Below, one piece after another: positions 8,770 to 34,640 of a stretch of 39,104 nt of DNA (position 1 is its first letter; each line of letters begins with the position of its first letter). The stretch lies in the NCBI GenBank assembly GCA_027028505.1, contig JALVJE010000067.1, positions 1 through 39,104 of the forward strand. Reading direction: 5' to 3'. The notes under the pieces are model-generated. The model made no database searches and was not told the origin of the DNA. It worked only from the letters and a program-made list of their open reading frames with translations. The DNA comes from Bacteroidales bacterium. Lineage in GTDB: Bacteria > Bacteroidota > Bacteroidia > Bacteroidales > VadinHA17. The translations under genes and the position numbers were made by a program.

Positions 8770-8884
8770 TCCCAGCTTACGCATTAGAAAGCCAGGTATG
8801 AGCTGAACGAATGCGTTAGCTGGGATCAACCCCTTTCAGCCAGGAAAAGCGCTTGCGATTTCCCATTGCTGATTTTGGGTTTAC
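8769..8884. repeat. Dispersed composite palindromic element, copy 1 (module A 8769-8826, module B about 8845-8884)
   Basis: ATCCCAGCTTACGCATT...AATGCGTTAGCTGGGAT inverted repeat, then GGAAAAGCGCTTGCGATTTCCCATTGCTGATTTTGGGTTTA shared with copy 2. Confidence 0.85.
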
Positions 8885-8919: not shown

Positions 8920-10356
8920 ATGAACAACTATCTCCTGAAAAAGACCAAGATCATAGCAACGCTGGGACCTGCTTCCACCGATCCCGGGACCATGAAAAAA
9001 ATGGTGCAGGAGGGGGTGAACATTTTTCGTCTCAATTTTTCTCACGGCACCCATGAGCAAAAAGCAGAAGAGATACGTACCATCAAAGAGCTGCGGAAAG
9101 AACTGGGCATTCCTTTGGGGATCCTGGCCGATCTGCAGGGGCCCAAGCTGCGTATCGGCAAGATAAAAGGAGGCACTGTTCTGCTGAAAGACGGAGAACT
9201 GATAGAGATCACCAACACCGAATGTGAGGGGGACGAGAAGAGGGTTTACATGAGCTACCGGGAGTTCGCCCGGGATGTAAAAAAGGGAGATGCCGTGCTC
9301 ATCGACGACGGCAAGATCAAGCTGGAGGTAACAGAGACCAATGGCAAGGATACGGTGGTAGCACGGGTGGTCCACGGAGGCCCACTCTCCTCCAATAAAG
9401 GGGTCAACCTGCCGCATACGGCCATTTCGCTCCCCAGTCTTACTGAGAAAGATCTGGAGGATGCCCGTTTCATTCTGGAGCAGGAGGTCGACTGGATCGC
9501 GCTCTCCTTTGTACGCAAACCGGAGGATGTGATCGATCTGCATGAGGTGATCCGGAAACATGGCGGCAGGAACCAGCCGTGGATCATCTCCAAGATCGAG
9601 AAGCCGGAGGCCCTGAAAAACCTGGACCAGATCATTGATCTGTCCAAAGGGATCATGGTCGCCCGCGGCGACCTGGGGGTGGAGGTGTCCTTCAGCCAGG
9701 TACCAATCATCCAGAAAGAGATCATACAAAAATGTATCGAGCAGGCCAAACCGGTGATCATTGCCACTCAGATGATGGAGAGCATGATCGAGAACTTCCG
9801 CCCCACCCGGGCGGAGGCCACAGATGTGGCCAATGCCGTGCTGGATGGTGGCGACTGTCTTATGCTCAGCGGAGAGACTTCCGTCGGGAAATATCCGGTG
9901 GAAGTGGTGACCAATATGCACGAGATCATCAGCTGGACAGAAGACCACGGGTTCCATTACCTGCAGGAACATCCGCCGGAAGAGGGCTTTCCCACTTTCC
10001 TGCCCGAATCGGTATGTTATCAGGCTACCAAAATGGCCTCACAGACCCACGCCGAAGCCATTATCACCTTTACCTATTCAGGGTCCACCGCGCTCTCCAT
10101 CGCCAGCCACCGGCCCAACGCACGCATCTTCGCTTTTACCAACAACAGAGAACTGATGAACAAGCTGGCCCTGATCTACAATGTTTATCCTTTTTATATG
10201 AATGAGGTGGAGAAGATCGAGGATGCCGTGCAGCAGTCTGTCCGGATACTCAAAGAAAAGGGATACCTCAAAGATGACCAGGTGGTGGTCCATGTCGGCA
10301 GCACCCCCATCAACCAGCGAGGGAAAACGAATGTGCTGAAATTAAGTTATATATAG
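8920..10356 (+). CDS. pyk: Pyruvate kinase
   Basis: 478-aa ORF; TKIIATLGPAS, ISKIEKPEAL, MVARGDLGVEV, IIATQMMESM. Confidence 0.97.
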   Translation: MNNYLLKKTKIIATLGPASTDPGTMKKMVQEGVNIFRLNFSHGTHEQKAEEIRTIKELRKELGIPLGILADLQGPKLRIGKIKGGTVLLKDGELIEITNTECEGDEKRVYMSYREFARDVKKGDAVLIDDGKIKLEVTETNGKDTVVARVVHGGPLSSNKGVNLPHTAISLPSLTEKDLEDARFILEQEVDWIALSFVRKPEDVIDLHEVIRKHGGRNQPWIISKIEKPEALKNLDQIIDLSKGIMVARGDLGVEVSFSQVPIIQKEIIQKCIEQAKPVIIATQMMESMIENFRPTRAEATDVANAVLDGGDCLMLSGETSVGKYPVEVVTNMHEIISWTEDHGFHYLQEHPPEEGFPTFLPESVCYQATKMASQTHAEAIITFTYSGSTALSIASHRPNARIFAFTNNRELMNKLALIYNVYPFYMNEVEKIEDAVQQSVRILKEKGYLKDDQVVVHVGSTPINQRGKTNVLKLSYI

Positions 10357-10437
10357 TTCAAAGTTCACGGTTCTCAGTTCTCAGTTCTCAGTTCTCAGTT
10401 CACAGTTCACAGTTCACAGTTCATAGTTCACAGTTCA
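10354..10437. repeat. Heptanucleotide tandem array (12 units, consensus CAGTTCA/CAGTTCT)
   Basis: TAGTTCA AAGTTCA CGGTTCT CAGTTCT x3 CAGTTCA x4 TAGTTCA CAGTTCA, unbroken 7-nt register; first unit contains the pyk TAG stop. Confidence 0.95.
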
Positions 10438-10469
10438 AGGTTTGTGAATTCGAGCTTCGCCCTTCGAGC

Positions 10470-10505
10470 TTCCCCGCCCGGACGACTGTCCGGTCGGACG
10501 GGAAA
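10470..10505. repeat. GC-rich palindrome between array and tamL-like stop (possible terminator)
   Basis: TTCCCCGCCCGGACgactGTCCGGTCGGACGGGAA. Confidence 0.5.
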
Positions 10506-13725: not shown

Positions 13726-14430
13726 CTACTCAAAATGGAAAGAGAGCACCCAGATCTGGGAGCGTAGACGCTGCAAGGCATTGACATACTCAGGATGTTC
13801 GGAGGCCGGATCCGTCACCAGGATATTGCGGAAGCCCGTCGAGACCTTCAACTCCGCTGAAAACTTAAAATAAGGCAGATAAAAATCTATGCCGAACCCC
13901 TCCTCATGGTACAGGTCCGATTGATGCAGCCGGAGATAGACCCCCTTCTCCGGATTGTACTTCCGGCGGGCAGCCATATCCATCCTGTAATTGACCCCCG
14001 CGATGAGGTAAGGCCTGAAATTATTGATCCTTTTGGCTTTATATTTTAATAGCAGAGGGAACTCTATGAAAGCTGATTCAATCTTCTGCTTGCCATACAT
14101 TATCCCTTCCGGCTTGTAATAATAAATATCGCGCTGCCCGAAGCTCAGGCCGGGGAGGAAACGCAGGTCCAGATATTTCATGAGCCGCAGGTTGGTCACC
14201 ATGGAGACATTGAAACCCGGCAACAACTCGTTCACATTGGCAAAAAGTGTGTCCGTGTTCTCAGGCACATTTTTATTGGCCACAAAAAAATCCATGGTAT
14301 TGAGCCCCAGGGTAAAACCAAAATGAATGGTCTTGGTATCCACTTTCTGGTAATATTTCACCTTCTGTTTCTGAGCAAAAAGGGAAAGCCCCAGGAGGGA
14401 GACAAGCAATATGAGAAAGGATCTCTTCAA
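13726..14430 (-). CDS. porT: PorT-family outer-membrane beta-barrel protein (type IX secretion)
   Basis: 234-aa ORF with signal peptide, HFGFTLGLNTMDFFV and barrel-like pattern; adjacent to ubiE as commonly seen in Bacteroidota. Confidence 0.8.
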   Translation of the reverse strand: MKRSFLILLVSLLGLSLFAQKQKVKYYQKVDTKTIHFGFTLGLNTMDFFVANKNVPENTDTLFANVNELLPGFNVSMVTNLRLMKYLDLRFLPGLSFGQRDIYYYKPEGIMYGKQKIESAFIEFPLLLKYKAKRINNFRPYLIAGVNYRMDMAARRKYNPEKGVYLRLHQSDLYHEEGFGIDFYLPYFKFSAELKVSTGFRNILVTDPASEHPEYVNALQRLRSQIWVLSFHFE

Positions 14431-14483
14431 ATGGCAACCGGTTTACTTCAATAAACTGTGATCCCGTAAAAATAGTATAAAAT

Positions 14484-14655
14484 TTAATCCAAAATCAGCA
14501 ATAGAAAATCGCAAGCGCTTTTCATTGCTGATCGATTAAGGATTTCATCGGTTTTGGTTATTCACCAAAACCGTGAACTCCTAGATCGGGGTTTACCCCA
14601 GCTAACGCATTAGTTCAGCTATTTTTTAGCTTCCTAATGCGTAATCCGGGTTTAA
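14484..14655. repeat. Dispersed composite palindromic element, copy 2 (module B 14484-14533, extra hairpin 14549-14573, module A 14587-14655)
   Basis: ATCAGCAATaGAAAATCGCAAGCGCTTttcATTGCTGAT; CGGTTTTGGTtattcACCAAAACCG; CCCAGCTAACGCATTAGttcAGCTAttttTTAGCTtcCTAATGCGTAATCCGGG. Confidence 0.9.
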
Positions 14656-15382
14656 TTTTTTTTTCCCCGAAATAAGCGGCCACGATCCCTCCGGTATAGG
14701 TTTGAAACCTGCACCCTCTGAAACCGCACCGTTCCATGATCTCCAGGAAGTCTTCGCGCTGTGGGAATCTTTCTATGGAGGCAGGCAGATAGGTATAGGC
14801 ATATTTATCACCGGAGAAAAGTTTCCCGGCCCAGGGTAACAGATGAAAAAGATAAAAGGAGTAGAGCGCTTTCAACGGTTGACGGGCAGGTTTGGAGAAC
14901 TCCAGAATAGCGGTTATCCCGCCCGGATGCAACACCCGCAACATCTCTTTGAGACCCTTCTCCAGGTCGGTATAGTTACGCACCCCGAAAGCCACGGTAA
15001 CGGCATCGAAAGTGTTGTCTTCGAAAGGTATCTCCTCGGCCCTGCCTGCAATGAACTTTACAGATCCTTCCTTGCCTTTTTTTCTCATCTTCTTCCTGCC
15101 GGCTTCCATCATCTTTTCCGACACGTCCATGCCTGTCACCCGGCAGTCGCAGGCTTTCAGCACGGAAAGGGCCAGATCGCCTGTGCCGGTCGCCACATCC
15201 AGCACATGATCACCATCCTTCAGTCCGGCGGCACGGATCAGTTTTTTTCGCCACCGGCGGTCGATGCCCAGCGAAAGAAAATGGTTCAGAAAATCATACC
15301 AGCCCGCAATGCGGTCAAACATGTTCTGTACATGCTCCCCTTTTTTTTCGAGGATCTCCTGCGTCTTATCCTGGGTAGCCAC
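14615..15382 (-). CDS. ubiE: Demethylmenaquinone/ubiquinone methyltransferase
   Basis: 255-aa ORF; LDVATGTGDLAL, AFGVRNYTDLEKGLKEMLRVLHPGG, YTGGIVAAYFG; last ~12 codons lie in repeat copy 2. Confidence 0.95.
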   Translation of the reverse strand: MATQDKTQEILEKKGEHVQNMFDRIAGWYDFLNHFLSLGIDRRWRKKLIRAAGLKDGDHVLDVATGTGDLALSVLKACDCRVTGMDVSEKMMEAGRKKMRKKGKEGSVKFIAGRAEEIPFEDNTFDAVTVAFGVRNYTDLEKGLKEMLRVLHPGGITAILEFSKPARQPLKALYSFYLFHLLPWAGKLFSGDKYAYTYLPASIERFPQREDFLEIMERCGFRGCRFQTYTGGIVAAYFGEKKIKPGLRIRKLKNS

Positions 15383-18858: not shown

Positions 18859-19947
18859 ATGAACCAACCCTACACTCCCGAATACCTCAGAAATTTCATC
18901 ACCCTGTTTTTTGAGAAGCTGGACTGTCCTGCGGAGGATGCCCGGGCCATTGCCGACGCTTTTGTGCGTGCCGAGCTGCGCAACCTCTCCTCCCACGGTA
19001 TGATCCGTCTGAAGGACCATTACCAGCTCTGGGAGGCAGGGCGTCTCAATGTACATCCTGATATCAAGGTTGTTCATGAGACCCCCGGCACGGCTGTCGT
19101 CGACGGGGACAACGGCGTGGGCATGCTTGTGGCTACGCGTGCCATGCAGGTGGCCATGGAGAAAGCAAAGAACGTGGGCAGCGGCTGGGTGGCCGTACGC
19201 AACTCCAACCACTTCGGCATAGGCAGCTACTATGCGCTGATGGCAGCAGAGAACGATATGATAGGCCTGGCGATGACCAACGGCAACCCGCTGGTGGCCC
19301 CGGCCAACTCGGTAGACCGTCTGCTGGGCACCAATCCCATCGCCCTGGCGGTGCCTGCCGGCAAGAACCCGCCTTTCGTGGGGGATTTCAGCACCACGCC
19401 CATCGCCCGTGGTAAACTGGCCGTAGCAGCTAAAAAAGGAGAGAAAGTGCCTTTCGGATACGTCATCGACAGCGAGGGCAACCCCTCTGACGATCCCGAT
19501 ATCCTGAAAAAAGGAGGCGCCATGGTGCCCCTGGGCGGCGACCTGGCCCACGGCAGCCACAAAGGCTATGCCCTCGGCGCCATCGTCGACATCCTCAGCG
19601 GCGTCCTCTCAGGCGCCAACTTCGGACCCTTCGTGCCGCCTAACCTGGCATACCTGCCCCTGCCCAAAGAACAGGTGGGCAAAGGGATGGGCCACTTCTT
19701 CGGCGCCTGGCGCATCGACGCCTTCATGGAGGCAGAAGAATTTAAAAGCCGCATGGACCGCTGGATAGAGATCTTCCGCAATGCAAAACCTGCCAAAGGA
19801 AAGAAAGTGCTCATCCCCGGCGATATTGAACGGGAAGCAGAAGAACGCCTCGCCCGCGAAGGGATCACCATCCTCCCGGCCATCCAGCAGGACGTAAAAG
19901 AGCTGGCTGACAAGCTGGGGATAGCGTTCGAGGTTCACGGTTCATAG
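18859..19947 (+). CDS. Ldh family oxidoreductase (malate/L-lactate dehydrogenase-like)
   Basis: 362-aa ORF; LRNLSSHGMIRL, VRNSNHFGIGSYYALMAAE, LGTNPIALAVPA. Confidence 0.93.
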   Translation: MNQPYTPEYLRNFITLFFEKLDCPAEDARAIADAFVRAELRNLSSHGMIRLKDHYQLWEAGRLNVHPDIKVVHETPGTAVVDGDNGVGMLVATRAMQVAMEKAKNVGSGWVAVRNSNHFGIGSYYALMAAENDMIGLAMTNGNPLVAPANSVDRLLGTNPIALAVPAGKNPPFVGDFSTTPIARGKLAVAAKKGEKVPFGYVIDSEGNPSDDPDILKKGGAMVPLGGDLAHGSHKGYALGAIVDILSGVLSGANFGPFVPPNLAYLPLPKEQVGKGMGHFFGAWRIDAFMEAEEFKSRMDRWIEIFRNAKPAKGKKVLIPGDIEREAEERLAREGITILPAIQQDVKELADKLGIAFEVHGS

Positions 19948-20154
19948 TTCACAGTTCACAGTTCTCGGTTCACAGTTCACAGTTCACGGTTCACGGTTCA
20001 CGGTTCACGGTTCATAGTTCACAGTTCACAGTTCTCGGTTCACAGTTCACAGTTCACGGTTCACGGTTCACAGTTCACAGTTCACGGTTCACGGTTCACA
20101 GTTCACGGTTCACAGTTCATCGTTCATCGTTCATCGTTCATCCTTCATCGATCA
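19931..20154. repeat. Large heptanucleotide array (32 units) with 70-nt higher-order duplication
   Basis: Continuous 7-nt register: 27 units of (A/C/T)(A/G)GTTC(A/T), then TCGTTCA x3, TCCTTCA, TCGATCA; 19945-20014 and 20015-20084 differ at 2 of 70 positions. Confidence 0.96.
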
Positions 20155-20162
20155 TCCTTCGC

Positions 20163-20228
20163 CCGACGAAGTCCCCGGTCACTGAGTAGCCTCACAGAGG
20201 CGTACCGAAGGGAGGGACGAAGTCGGGG
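20163..20228. repeat. GC-rich imperfect palindrome between the array and the nitroreductase stop
   Basis: CCCGAC-GAA-GTCCC ... GGGAC-GAA-GTCGGG arms enclosing CGGTCACTGAGTAGCCTCACAGAGGCGTACCGAAG. Confidence 0.7.
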
Positions 20229-30739: not shown

Positions 30740-31543
30740 ATGAAGAAAGTAATAATCCTATTCACTTTCTTCCTTTTTTTTGTTTTCACCGCACTGGGAC
30801 AGGGAGAAATAGATAACCAGCAGAAGATCTTCTACCGGAATGAATCCACTTTTGGTTTCTCGCTTAACTCCACGGGCTACGGTGCCAGCTACCGTTACGG
30901 CAAAAGGATCAACTACCTGAACAAAAGGCTTTTTGAAGGGGATTTCAACTATTTCCGCCATCCCAAGGAGATCAAAATGTACAATCCCTATTCACCCAAC
31001 TCCCGGGGATTCGTTTACGGCAAAACCAACCTTTTTTTCAATATAAGGCTGGGATATGGTTTCCAGCGCGACCTCTTCCGCAAGATCGACAAAGGCGGTG
31101 TGGCCGTTCGCTATTTTTTCACCTTCGGCCCGAGCATCGGCTTTTATAAACCCATCTACTACGAGGTCATCTATTTCCTTTCGATGAATACCTACACCAT
31201 CGTGGAGATGAAGTTCGATCCCACCTCCCTGCACTCTCCCAACGACATATACGGCCGGGCCTCCTTCTTTAAAGGATGGGACGAAGTGAAATTCGTGCCG
31301 GGGGGGTATGCTAAATTCGGCTTTAATTTTGAGTTCAGCAAATTCGACCCCTTTGTCCAGTCTCTCGAAGGCGGTATTACCGTCGATGCCTATCCCTGGA
31401 GGGTCCCTATCATGGCCTCCCCCGATAACAACAGCATCTTTATCTCCCTCTTCGCCTGCTTCCGCTTCGGCAAGATCATCGACAAGTACTACAAGAAAGC
31501 CTACGAGAAAAACCAGCAACTGGACAACTCTTTCTCGTATTAG
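30740..31543 (+). CDS. Hypothetical exported protein (267 aa), probable outer-membrane beta-barrel
   Basis: Start chosen at MKKVIILFTFFLFFVFTALGQ (signal peptide); upstream 35 aa of the ORF overlap the small lipoprotein gene and look noncoding. Confidence 0.75.
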   Translation: MKKVIILFTFFLFFVFTALGQGEIDNQQKIFYRNESTFGFSLNSTGYGASYRYGKRINYLNKRLFEGDFNYFRHPKEIKMYNPYSPNSRGFVYGKTNLFFNIRLGYGFQRDLFRKIDKGGVAVRYFFTFGPSIGFYKPIYYEVIYFLSMNTYTIVEMKFDPTSLHSPNDIYGRASFFKGWDEVKFVPGGYAKFGFNFEFSKFDPFVQSLEGGITVDAYPWRVPIMASPDNNSIFISLFACFRFGKIIDKYYKKAYEKNQQLDNSFSY

Positions 31544-31616
31544 TTCCAAGTTCATGGTTCCAAGTTCATAGTTCATAGTTCATAGTTCATAGTTCATAGT
31601 TCATAGTTCATAGTTG
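31541..31616. repeat. Heptanucleotide tandem array (TAGTTCA-type, ~11 units)
   Basis: TAGTTCC AAGTTCA TGGTTCC AAGTTCA TAGTTCA x6 TAGTTG; first unit is the stop codon of the 267-aa ORF. Confidence 0.95.
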
Positions 31617-31627
31617 CCCCATTATTC

Positions 31628-31647
31628 CCTGCCTACCGGCAGGCAGG
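31628..31647. repeat. GC-rich palindrome CCTGCCTACCGGCAGGCAGG
   Basis: CCTGCC-tacc-GGCAGG stem; related to the CCTGCCTAGGCAGG palindrome at 18655. Confidence 0.65.
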
Positions 31648-32850: not shown

Positions 32851-33234
32851 TTAAGCATAGATCGCTATGACCTCCATGGGAAGGTCCAAATAATCCCGGA
32901 AATGCTCTCCCATTTCCTGGATCGACTCATCTTCTTCCTCAAAATACCATCGTAAGGTAATATTGCGATGCCCCTCATCTATATACTTTTTCAACGTACG
33001 GAGGATCTCCATGATGTATTTCATCGTACCACTGTTCATGTATTCCAGCCTGAACTGCAGTTCAAAAGGCCGGTCCGGCTCTTCTTCAAGGAACTCCTGC
33101 AGCCATTTAAGCACAGGCAGATAGATCTCTTCCGGATTCTCAGGGATGGAACGTCCCGCGATGAGGAAAACATCCCCCTCTCCCAGCCTGATCTCCGGAA
33201 GAGTCTCTTTGGGTAGGATCACTAATGGTTCCAT
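32851..33234 (-). CDS. SiaC-family / DUF1987 regulatory phosphoprotein
   Basis: From MEPLVILPKETLPEIRLGEGDVFLIAGRSIPENPEEIYLPVLKWLQEF; EYMNSGTMKYIMEILRTLKK (STAS-like). Upstream ORF-track start rejected. Confidence 0.85.
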   Translation of the reverse strand: MEPLVILPKETLPEIRLGEGDVFLIAGRSIPENPEEIYLPVLKWLQEFLEEEPDRPFELQFRLEYMNSGTMKYIMEILRTLKKYIDEGHRNITLRWYFEEEDESIQEMGEHFRDYLDLPMEVIAIYA

Positions 33235-33289
33235 AACAGACAACAATATAGAAATTTTCTTTCGATCTCTGTTCAAAAAATATTACAAA

Positions 33290-33370
33290 ATTAAACCCAG
33301 ATTACGTATTAGGAAGCTAAAAAATAGCTGAACTAATGCGTTAGCTGGGGTTAACCCCGATTTGGGTTAA
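33290..33370. repeat. Dispersed palindromic element, copy 3 (module A only)
   Basis: TTAAACCCAGATTACGTATTAGGAAGCTAAAAAATAGCTGAACTAATGCGTTAGCTGGGGTTAACCCC, near-identical to copy 2 in reverse complement. Confidence 0.9.
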
Positions 33371-33389
33371 AGAACCTGCACCGGGCCCG

Positions 33390-34640
33390 TCACTCATAAC
33401 GCAATGCAATGATCGGGTCCAGGCGGGCTGCTTTGGATGCCGGATAATATCCGGACACCACCCCTACGATAAAACATACCGCCACCCCGCCGATGATCCA
33501 CACCCAGGGGATCACAAAAGCACTCTTGGTCAGCAGGGAGATCAGATTGCCCATAAGGATCCCCAGGAAGATCCCCAACAATCCTCCCAGCTGCCCGATG
33601 AGGACAGCCTCGAAAAGGAACTGCCAGCGTATCGTCCTGCCCTTGGCGCCCAGCGCTTTCCGGATACCTATCTCCCGCGTCCTCTCCGTCACTGTCACCA
33701 GCATGATATTCATCAGACCGATGACCGCCCCGAAAAGGGTAATGATCCCGATGATCGTAGCCGCCCAGGTGACATACCGGATGTTTTCCATCAGGATGGC
33801 GACCAGGTTGTCGCTGCGGGTGATATTGAAATCGGACTCATCGTAGGCCGTGAGACCCCGGATGATACGGAACATTCCTTCCGCCTCGCTGGAGATGATG
33901 TCCAGCAAACGGGTATCATCCGGCATCACGCCGATGCGAAAGGTCATATTGGGACGTGAAAAATAGTGCCGCACCGTCGTCACAGGCATCAGACAGGTAC
34001 GATCGGAACCACCGAAACTGGCTCCTTTCTCTTTAAAAACACCTATCACCTTGAAATGGGCCCCGCCGATGGAGACGATCTTTCCAAGCGGTTCTCCGAG
34101 CGGGAAGATCTGCCTTACCAGATCAGCCCCCACGATCACCACATTGCGGTTCATCTGTATATCCTGGACCGTGAGGTTACGTCCTTCGCGCAGCTCATTC
34201 CCCGAAACCATCATATAATTCTCGTCCCCACCCACCAACTGGATATTGGGATTGCTCTTGTGGTCCTCATATTTCACCGTAGCCATGCCGGAAGCTACCA
34301 CAGAAACCGACACCAGCGCCGGCATATTGAATTCATCTTTGAATCTTTCGGCCTGCCGGTAGGTGATCCGGGCATGGTTCTTTTTTCTGTATCGCTTATT
34401 TCCCACCACGATCGTCATACCACGACTCTCGATAAAAAAAGTGTTGGCACCCATCATGGTAAACTGCTCGGTGAGGGAATACTTGATCGAATCGATGGCA
34501 GTGAGAATGCCTACCAATGCCATGATGCCAAAGGATATGATGAATATCGTCAGCACCGCCCGCACCTTATTGGTACGGATCGAATCAAAGGAGATCTTCA
34601 GATTATCCTGTAATAAACCGGCCCTGATACGCATAACCAT
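33390..34640 (-). CDS. ABC transporter permease, MacB/FtsX family
   Basis: Periplasmic-core MacB-like domain and FtsX motif [40 protein letters not shown]; start placed at [31 protein letters not shown]. Confidence 0.9.

Follow-up and report, generated by a model that had tools for sequence, protein, structure and literature searches.

Bacterial MITEs known to be fused to open reading frames include Correia/NEMIS, ERIC and YAPL (reviewed in PMC2229807), and the same review cites the Rickettsia palindromic elements of Ogata et al. 2000. In the Bacteroidota, MITECca01 of Cardinium is a MITE derived from IS982 (PMC9769881). The case analysed here comes from a Bacteroidales bacterium, the window being the whole contig stretch of 39,104 nt, in which the reading frame of the ubiE/menG methyltransferase runs into a palindromic repeat. 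The genome of the window (G000) is a fragmented assembly of 275 contigs (3.38 Mb, 92 % complete).

The ubiE ORF lies on the minus strand (14615–15382) and encodes 255 aa, matching PF01209 with 237.6 bits and TIGR01934 (MenG_MenH_UbiE) with 268.6 bits against a cut-off of 158. The frame enters the repeat and terminates in its left arm on the minus strand, the protein ending in AAYFGEKKIKPGLRIRKLKNS before a TGA stop at 14615–14617. As the earlier note had proposed, the end of UbiE is encoded by this left arm: the repeat starts at CCC (14650), and the 36 nt at 14615–14650 on the minus strand encode the tail PGLRIRKLKNS and the stop. The fusion of ubiE to the repeat is thus confirmed as real in the assembly. 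The note was also right that copy 3 of the repeat yields a similar frame, here KPRLRIRKLKNS followed by a stop in a noncoding gap between genes (33296). The residues IK preceding the tail, which it implied to be part of the element, are instead encoded (ATT AAA) by one flanking A and the 5-bp duplication TTAAA (14651–14655), outside the element. The 11 element-coded residues lie past the conserved UbiE domain. Window UbiE would carry a 13-residue addition, IKPGLRIRKLKNS, replacing a final N; because the domain match stops at residue 241 and natural UbiE C-termini vary among the compared relatives, from GEK directly before the stop to about ten extra residues, this predicted addition is probably tolerated rather than selected, and the predicted tail is probably incidental.

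The interval 14587–14655 reported for the element in the earlier note covers its first module, a leading third of it, and the ubiE-side duplication, but the element is longer. Copy 2 of the repeat (CCCGGATTACG...CTGATTTTGGA) spans 163 bp at 14488–14650 on the minus strand, its left end towards ubiE, with sharp boundaries common to the aligned copies. It has CCC...GGG-type ends and a perfect 5-bp target-site duplication, TTAAA, at 14651–14655 on the ubiE side and identically at 14483–14487 on the porT side. Three hairpin modules make up the element on this strand. In module A (14597–14650) the 17-bp terminal inverted repeat (TIR) and its inverted copy surround the loop region AGCTAAAAAATAGCT. 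Folding and self inverted matches place module B (CGGTTTTGGT...ACCAAAACCG) at about 14532–14587 and module C (CAGCAATGAAAAGCG...TTTTCTATTGCTG), with the right end TTTGGA, at about 14490–14531. The TIRs of the element are imperfect, CCCAGATTACGCATTAG and CCCAAAATCAGCAATAG matching at 12 of 17 positions. Stops occur early in all three frames read from the left (nt 15, 23 and 34), so that genes entering from that side soon end, with a short tail; from the right, they occur at nt 15, 50 and 106. The hairpins are strong (RNA z −10.1, DNA z −12.0) and 97.8 % of stem cells are paired; selected RNA structure was considered, but compensatory change in only 2 of 61 stem pairs is too little to claim it. 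An Rfam search of the window returned tRNAs only, with no match to the MITE above the gathering score. At element positions 52–63 (about 14588–14599) two TIR-bounded units seem to be joined at GGG-GTTAA-CCC, as if by adjacent insertion, and a Chitinophaga-labelled MAG element with different internal sequence (L092, L099, L123) has a similar join, GGG-ATTAA-CCC.

In G000 there are about 60 copies of the repeat, far beyond chance, of which 40 strong copies, the query itself aside, are 89–98 % identical over most of the query; 68 left ends are found when up to three mismatches are allowed. A single left and a single right boundary are common to the aligned copies, which mostly measure 162–163 bp; most of the 44 with both flanks fall within 160–164 bp. 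Perfect 5-bp flank duplications were present in 33 of these 44, against a mean of 9.4 and a maximum of 20 when the flanks were randomly re-paired (10,000 trials). Matches of length 4, 6, 7 and 8 were seen in 1, 1, 0 and 0 copies, respectively, therefore 5 bp is the true length of the duplication. The duplications are TTWAW-like (TTTAT, TTAAA, TTTAA, TTAAT, ATTAT, TTCAA and ATAAA), and this 5-bp pattern is the footprint of a DDE transposase. The repeat is short, multicopy, without a transposase gene and without any frame open through it, and it has both a target-site duplication and an empty site in a relative. It is a MITE family of a known kind, not previously described in the open-access literature searched: the TIR string is absent from the bacterial-transposon papers there, and the open-access papers that combine IS1380 with miniature inverted-repeat include none on such a Bacteroidota element by title or abstract, ISfinder being outside the scope of this search.

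Two other copies lie in the window, both on the plus strand. Copy 1 (8771–8879), upstream of pyruvate kinase, is a 109-bp form of modules A and C with flanks TTTAT and TTTAC. The insertion at this site is orthologous to a 161-bp A+B+C copy in G001, the closest relative (G001:C402:8608-8780); it is older than the ubiE insertion, and window copy 1, judged by the alignment, is a form that has lost the hairpin B kept by G001. Copy 3 (33296–33362), between two minus-strand genes, is a short form of A plus CCCCGATTTGGG with TTAAA on both sides. It was considered as an insertion common to G001 and rejected, the G001 element having the opposite orientation and a slightly different point of insertion. 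The gap concerned (window 33230–33400, G001:C399:19700-19960) carries duplications TTAAA and ATTAA in the two genomes, which would reflect an inversion or else two separate insertions at a single A/T-rich spot. Tandem repeats of the GTTCAYR type (7-bp/14-bp) also form three arrays in or near intergenic regions (10321–10474, 19898–20177 and 31501–31647).

An intact IS1380-family element in the genome of a congener (G003) has a TIR identical to the left 17 bp of the MITE, CCCAGATTACGCATTAG. This insertion sequence is 1,560 bp long, matches over 17 bp at one end and 16 at the other, and is flanked by TTAAT and TTAAA. Its 452-codon open frame contains a 442-aa protein with 238.8 bits to NF033539 (IS1380; cut-off 180) and 150.8 bits to PF13701. 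Likewise, the left 17 bp are identical to one end, and differ by one base from the other, of a complete 1,404-bp insertion sequence (L157 and L091) with perfect TTAAA duplications and a 448-residue transposase frame, which in L157 scores 263.6 bits to NF033539. The string is present in at least 106 stretches of public genomes, among the matches listed mostly Bacteroidota and often at contig edges. In the G000 assembly there is no complete IS1380 gene, ends only: ends of the G003-type element, with protein 100 % identical to the intact G003 copy, lie at three contig edges (C132, C158 and C216), as expected for a multicopy insertion sequence that breaks the assembly. The lone match in G000 to the IS1380 Pfam profile, a terminal ORF of C209 scoring below threshold, was rejected as a parent as it lacks a matching TIR. 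The right end of the MITE has diverged from the insertion sequence TIR, only 12 of 17 bases matching, and no internal sequence common to the two was found in their comparison. Because of the identical 17-bp TIR, the IS1380 transposase matches and the 5-bp duplication, the repeat is classed by sequence as a MITE with IS1380-type ends, and a G003-type element may have mobilised it in trans. The family includes ISEcp1, its best-known member. A 5-bp duplication (TATGA) has been reported for ISEcp1 (PMC2887853).

The site without the element is found in G001, which belongs to the same genus as the window and has 95 % identity in UbiE and 93 % nucleotide identity around the locus. There, the empty site reads GGGGAAAAGAAAAATTAAATTTTATAC and UbiE ends in GEKKN, close to the end near YFGEKK that the earlier note had predicted, with the TAA stop within a single TTAAA target. 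The ubiE-porT junction of G001, GGGGAAAAGAAAAATTAAATTTTATACTATTTTTAC, has the structure GGGGAAAAGAAAAA-TTAAA-TTTTATAC. That of the window, GGGGAAAAAAAAATTAAA-[163 bp]-TTAAATTTTATACTATTTTTAC, has the structure A9-TTAAA-[163 bp]-TTAAA-TTTTATAC. As the duplicated TTAAA includes the native TAA, insertion alone leaves the stop intact, and the replacement of the native stop by the insertion, suggested in the earlier note, is not supported; the frame can run on only if the A-run is one nucleotide shorter. This run, at the end of the native ubiE coding sequence (14656–14664, minus strand), has nine positions in the window and ten in G001 (AAAAGAAAAA, in pairwise alignment with G001:C402), a difference that falls outside both element and duplication. 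The ubiE frame enters the element because of it: with nine As the codons read AAA AAA ATT AAA CCC..., which puts the TAA out of phase and leaves the TGA of the element as the first stop. The A9 run would be either a separate 1-nt deletion or a homopolymer error of the draft assembly. The RIRKLKNS tail, which if present in repeat-free orthologues would speak against its origin in the repeat, is absent from all 29 compared relatives, and the printed sequence of the congeners L063–L067 and 23 further relatives has no element 3′ of the ubiE stop. Because the other congeners and these 23 relatives lack tail and element, the simplest history is that the insertion arose in the lineage of the window.

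The gene downstream of ubiE is porT/sprT of type IX secretion (13726–14430, minus strand; NF052311 215.6 bits, cut-off 125), and a porT homologue adjoins ubiE in 23 of 30 loci compared by tblastn, the window included. Copy 2 places three stable hairpins between these genes, and an effect on porT is possible. A TATTTTT(G/A) motif common to the congeners, resembling a Bacteroidota −7 box, lies at about 14463–14475 on the minus strand, upstream of porT and downstream of ubiE; immediately upstream of this motif, copy 2 would take the place of the −33 region in a candidate porT promoter. Elsewhere, ten other ORFs of at least 100 codons (any start codon) enter a copy. The majority resemble non-coding antisense frames; just two look like real genes ending in the element, a 527-aa ORF with 35 element codons (L010, contig C256) and a 507-aa ORF with nine (L053, contig C121).

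It is therefore considered probable, with good confidence, that a MITE mobilised by IS1380 entered TTAAA at the ubiE stop and that separate loss of one A gave the element-coded tail. An IS1380-family transposase acting in trans would have carried the non-autonomous element into the pentamer overlapping the native stop (AAT TAA A), and this pentamer was duplicated on insertion. UbiE would at that point still have ended in GEKKN, the stop lying inside the duplicated pentamer. The neighbouring run would later have lost a single A, shifting the frame by one; the native TAA would then no longer be in phase, and translation would continue to the left-arm TGA, 12 codons into the element, with the additional residues placed beyond the conserved domain. 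Points against this explanation are the 275-contig assembly and a homopolymer base without read support, the presence in G000 of IS1380 ends but no complete gene, the 12/17 match of the right TIR and the lack of common internal sequence, and the 11 of 44 copies without a perfect duplication. The main competing possibility, unlikely although it deserves serious consideration, is that A9 stems from an error of assembly or consensus and that the true run is A10, with UbiE ending in GEKKN at the native TAA and the element wholly behind the gene. The whole fusion hangs on one homopolymer base in a fragmented assembly, and a run of ten positions yields precisely the native end of G001; however, the remaining ubiE ORF is intact, the contig is long (39 kb), and runs of nine bases are usually correct in short-read assemblies. 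It is doubtful that the A9 tract beside the element causes polymerase or ribosome slippage, giving a mixture of native GEKKN and basic-tail UbiE; if so, a transposon and a slippery tract would together have provided a core respiratory enzyme with two C-termini.

It is equally doubtful that the insertion alone, with no further change, both eliminated the native stop and provided another. The present ORF does terminate in the element, but a clean insertion into a G001-type site keeps the stop and the 1-nt difference lies elsewhere, so that the empty site contradicts this history unless a 9-A allele preceded the insertion; such an allele would run out of frame far into porT. Selection for the basic tail (R, R, K, K), or for the three ubiE-porT hairpins, through altered UbiE activity or porT expression, is very unlikely. 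The stable folding of the hairpins and the adjacency of the two genes in most relatives would fit it, whereas the insertion is absent from the ubiE loci of G001 and the other congeners, about 60 dispersed sites carry the element, and compensatory change in its stems is scarce. Strong hairpins, many copies and the position of each of the three window copies at a gene edge or in a gap also recall palindromes of the REP/BIME type, mobilised by a RAYT (IS200/IS605-like) enzyme. Transposition of the IS200/605 type is not known to make a target duplication, and because 5-bp duplications prevail this explanation is refuted on the present data; with ends that match the IS1380 TIR over 17 bp, it has next to no probability.

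The MITE insertion at ubiE is ordinary transposon biology. The relative with the empty site separates two steps that are usually merged, landing on a stop preserved by duplication and, later, recruitment of the transposon's own stop through a frame slip. In addition, an abundant palindromic repeat of uncultured Bacteroidota is tied to the IS1380 family, which allows proper annotation of such repeats because the 17-bp IS1380 end recurs in many Bacteroidota assemblies among the matches listed. With the IS1380 family (NF033539) the MITE shares the 17-bp TIR start, found in a congener and in other Bacteroidota, and 5-bp A/T-rich duplications as in ISEcp1; it differs in having no transposase gene, a length of 163 bp, a diverged right TIR and no common internal sequence. 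Like MITECca01, it is a short non-autonomous element, here probably derived from an insertion sequence, that spread in a burst within one Bacteroidota lineage alongside its candidate parental family, although MITECca01 has IS982 and not the IS1380 family as its parent, is about 240 bp long and has other ends. Host genes are also found fused to frames of bacterial MITEs such as Correia/NEMIS, ERIC and YAPL, in some cases at the C terminus (RU-3 with LivJ), whereas the ubiE fusion needs a 1-nt homopolymer shift beside the insertion and not the insertion point alone. The Rickettsia palindromic elements, as cited in the review, are likewise palindromic selfish DNA translated within a conserved protein, but they lie in frame within proteins and translation continues beyond them, whereas the MITE at ubiE ends the protein.
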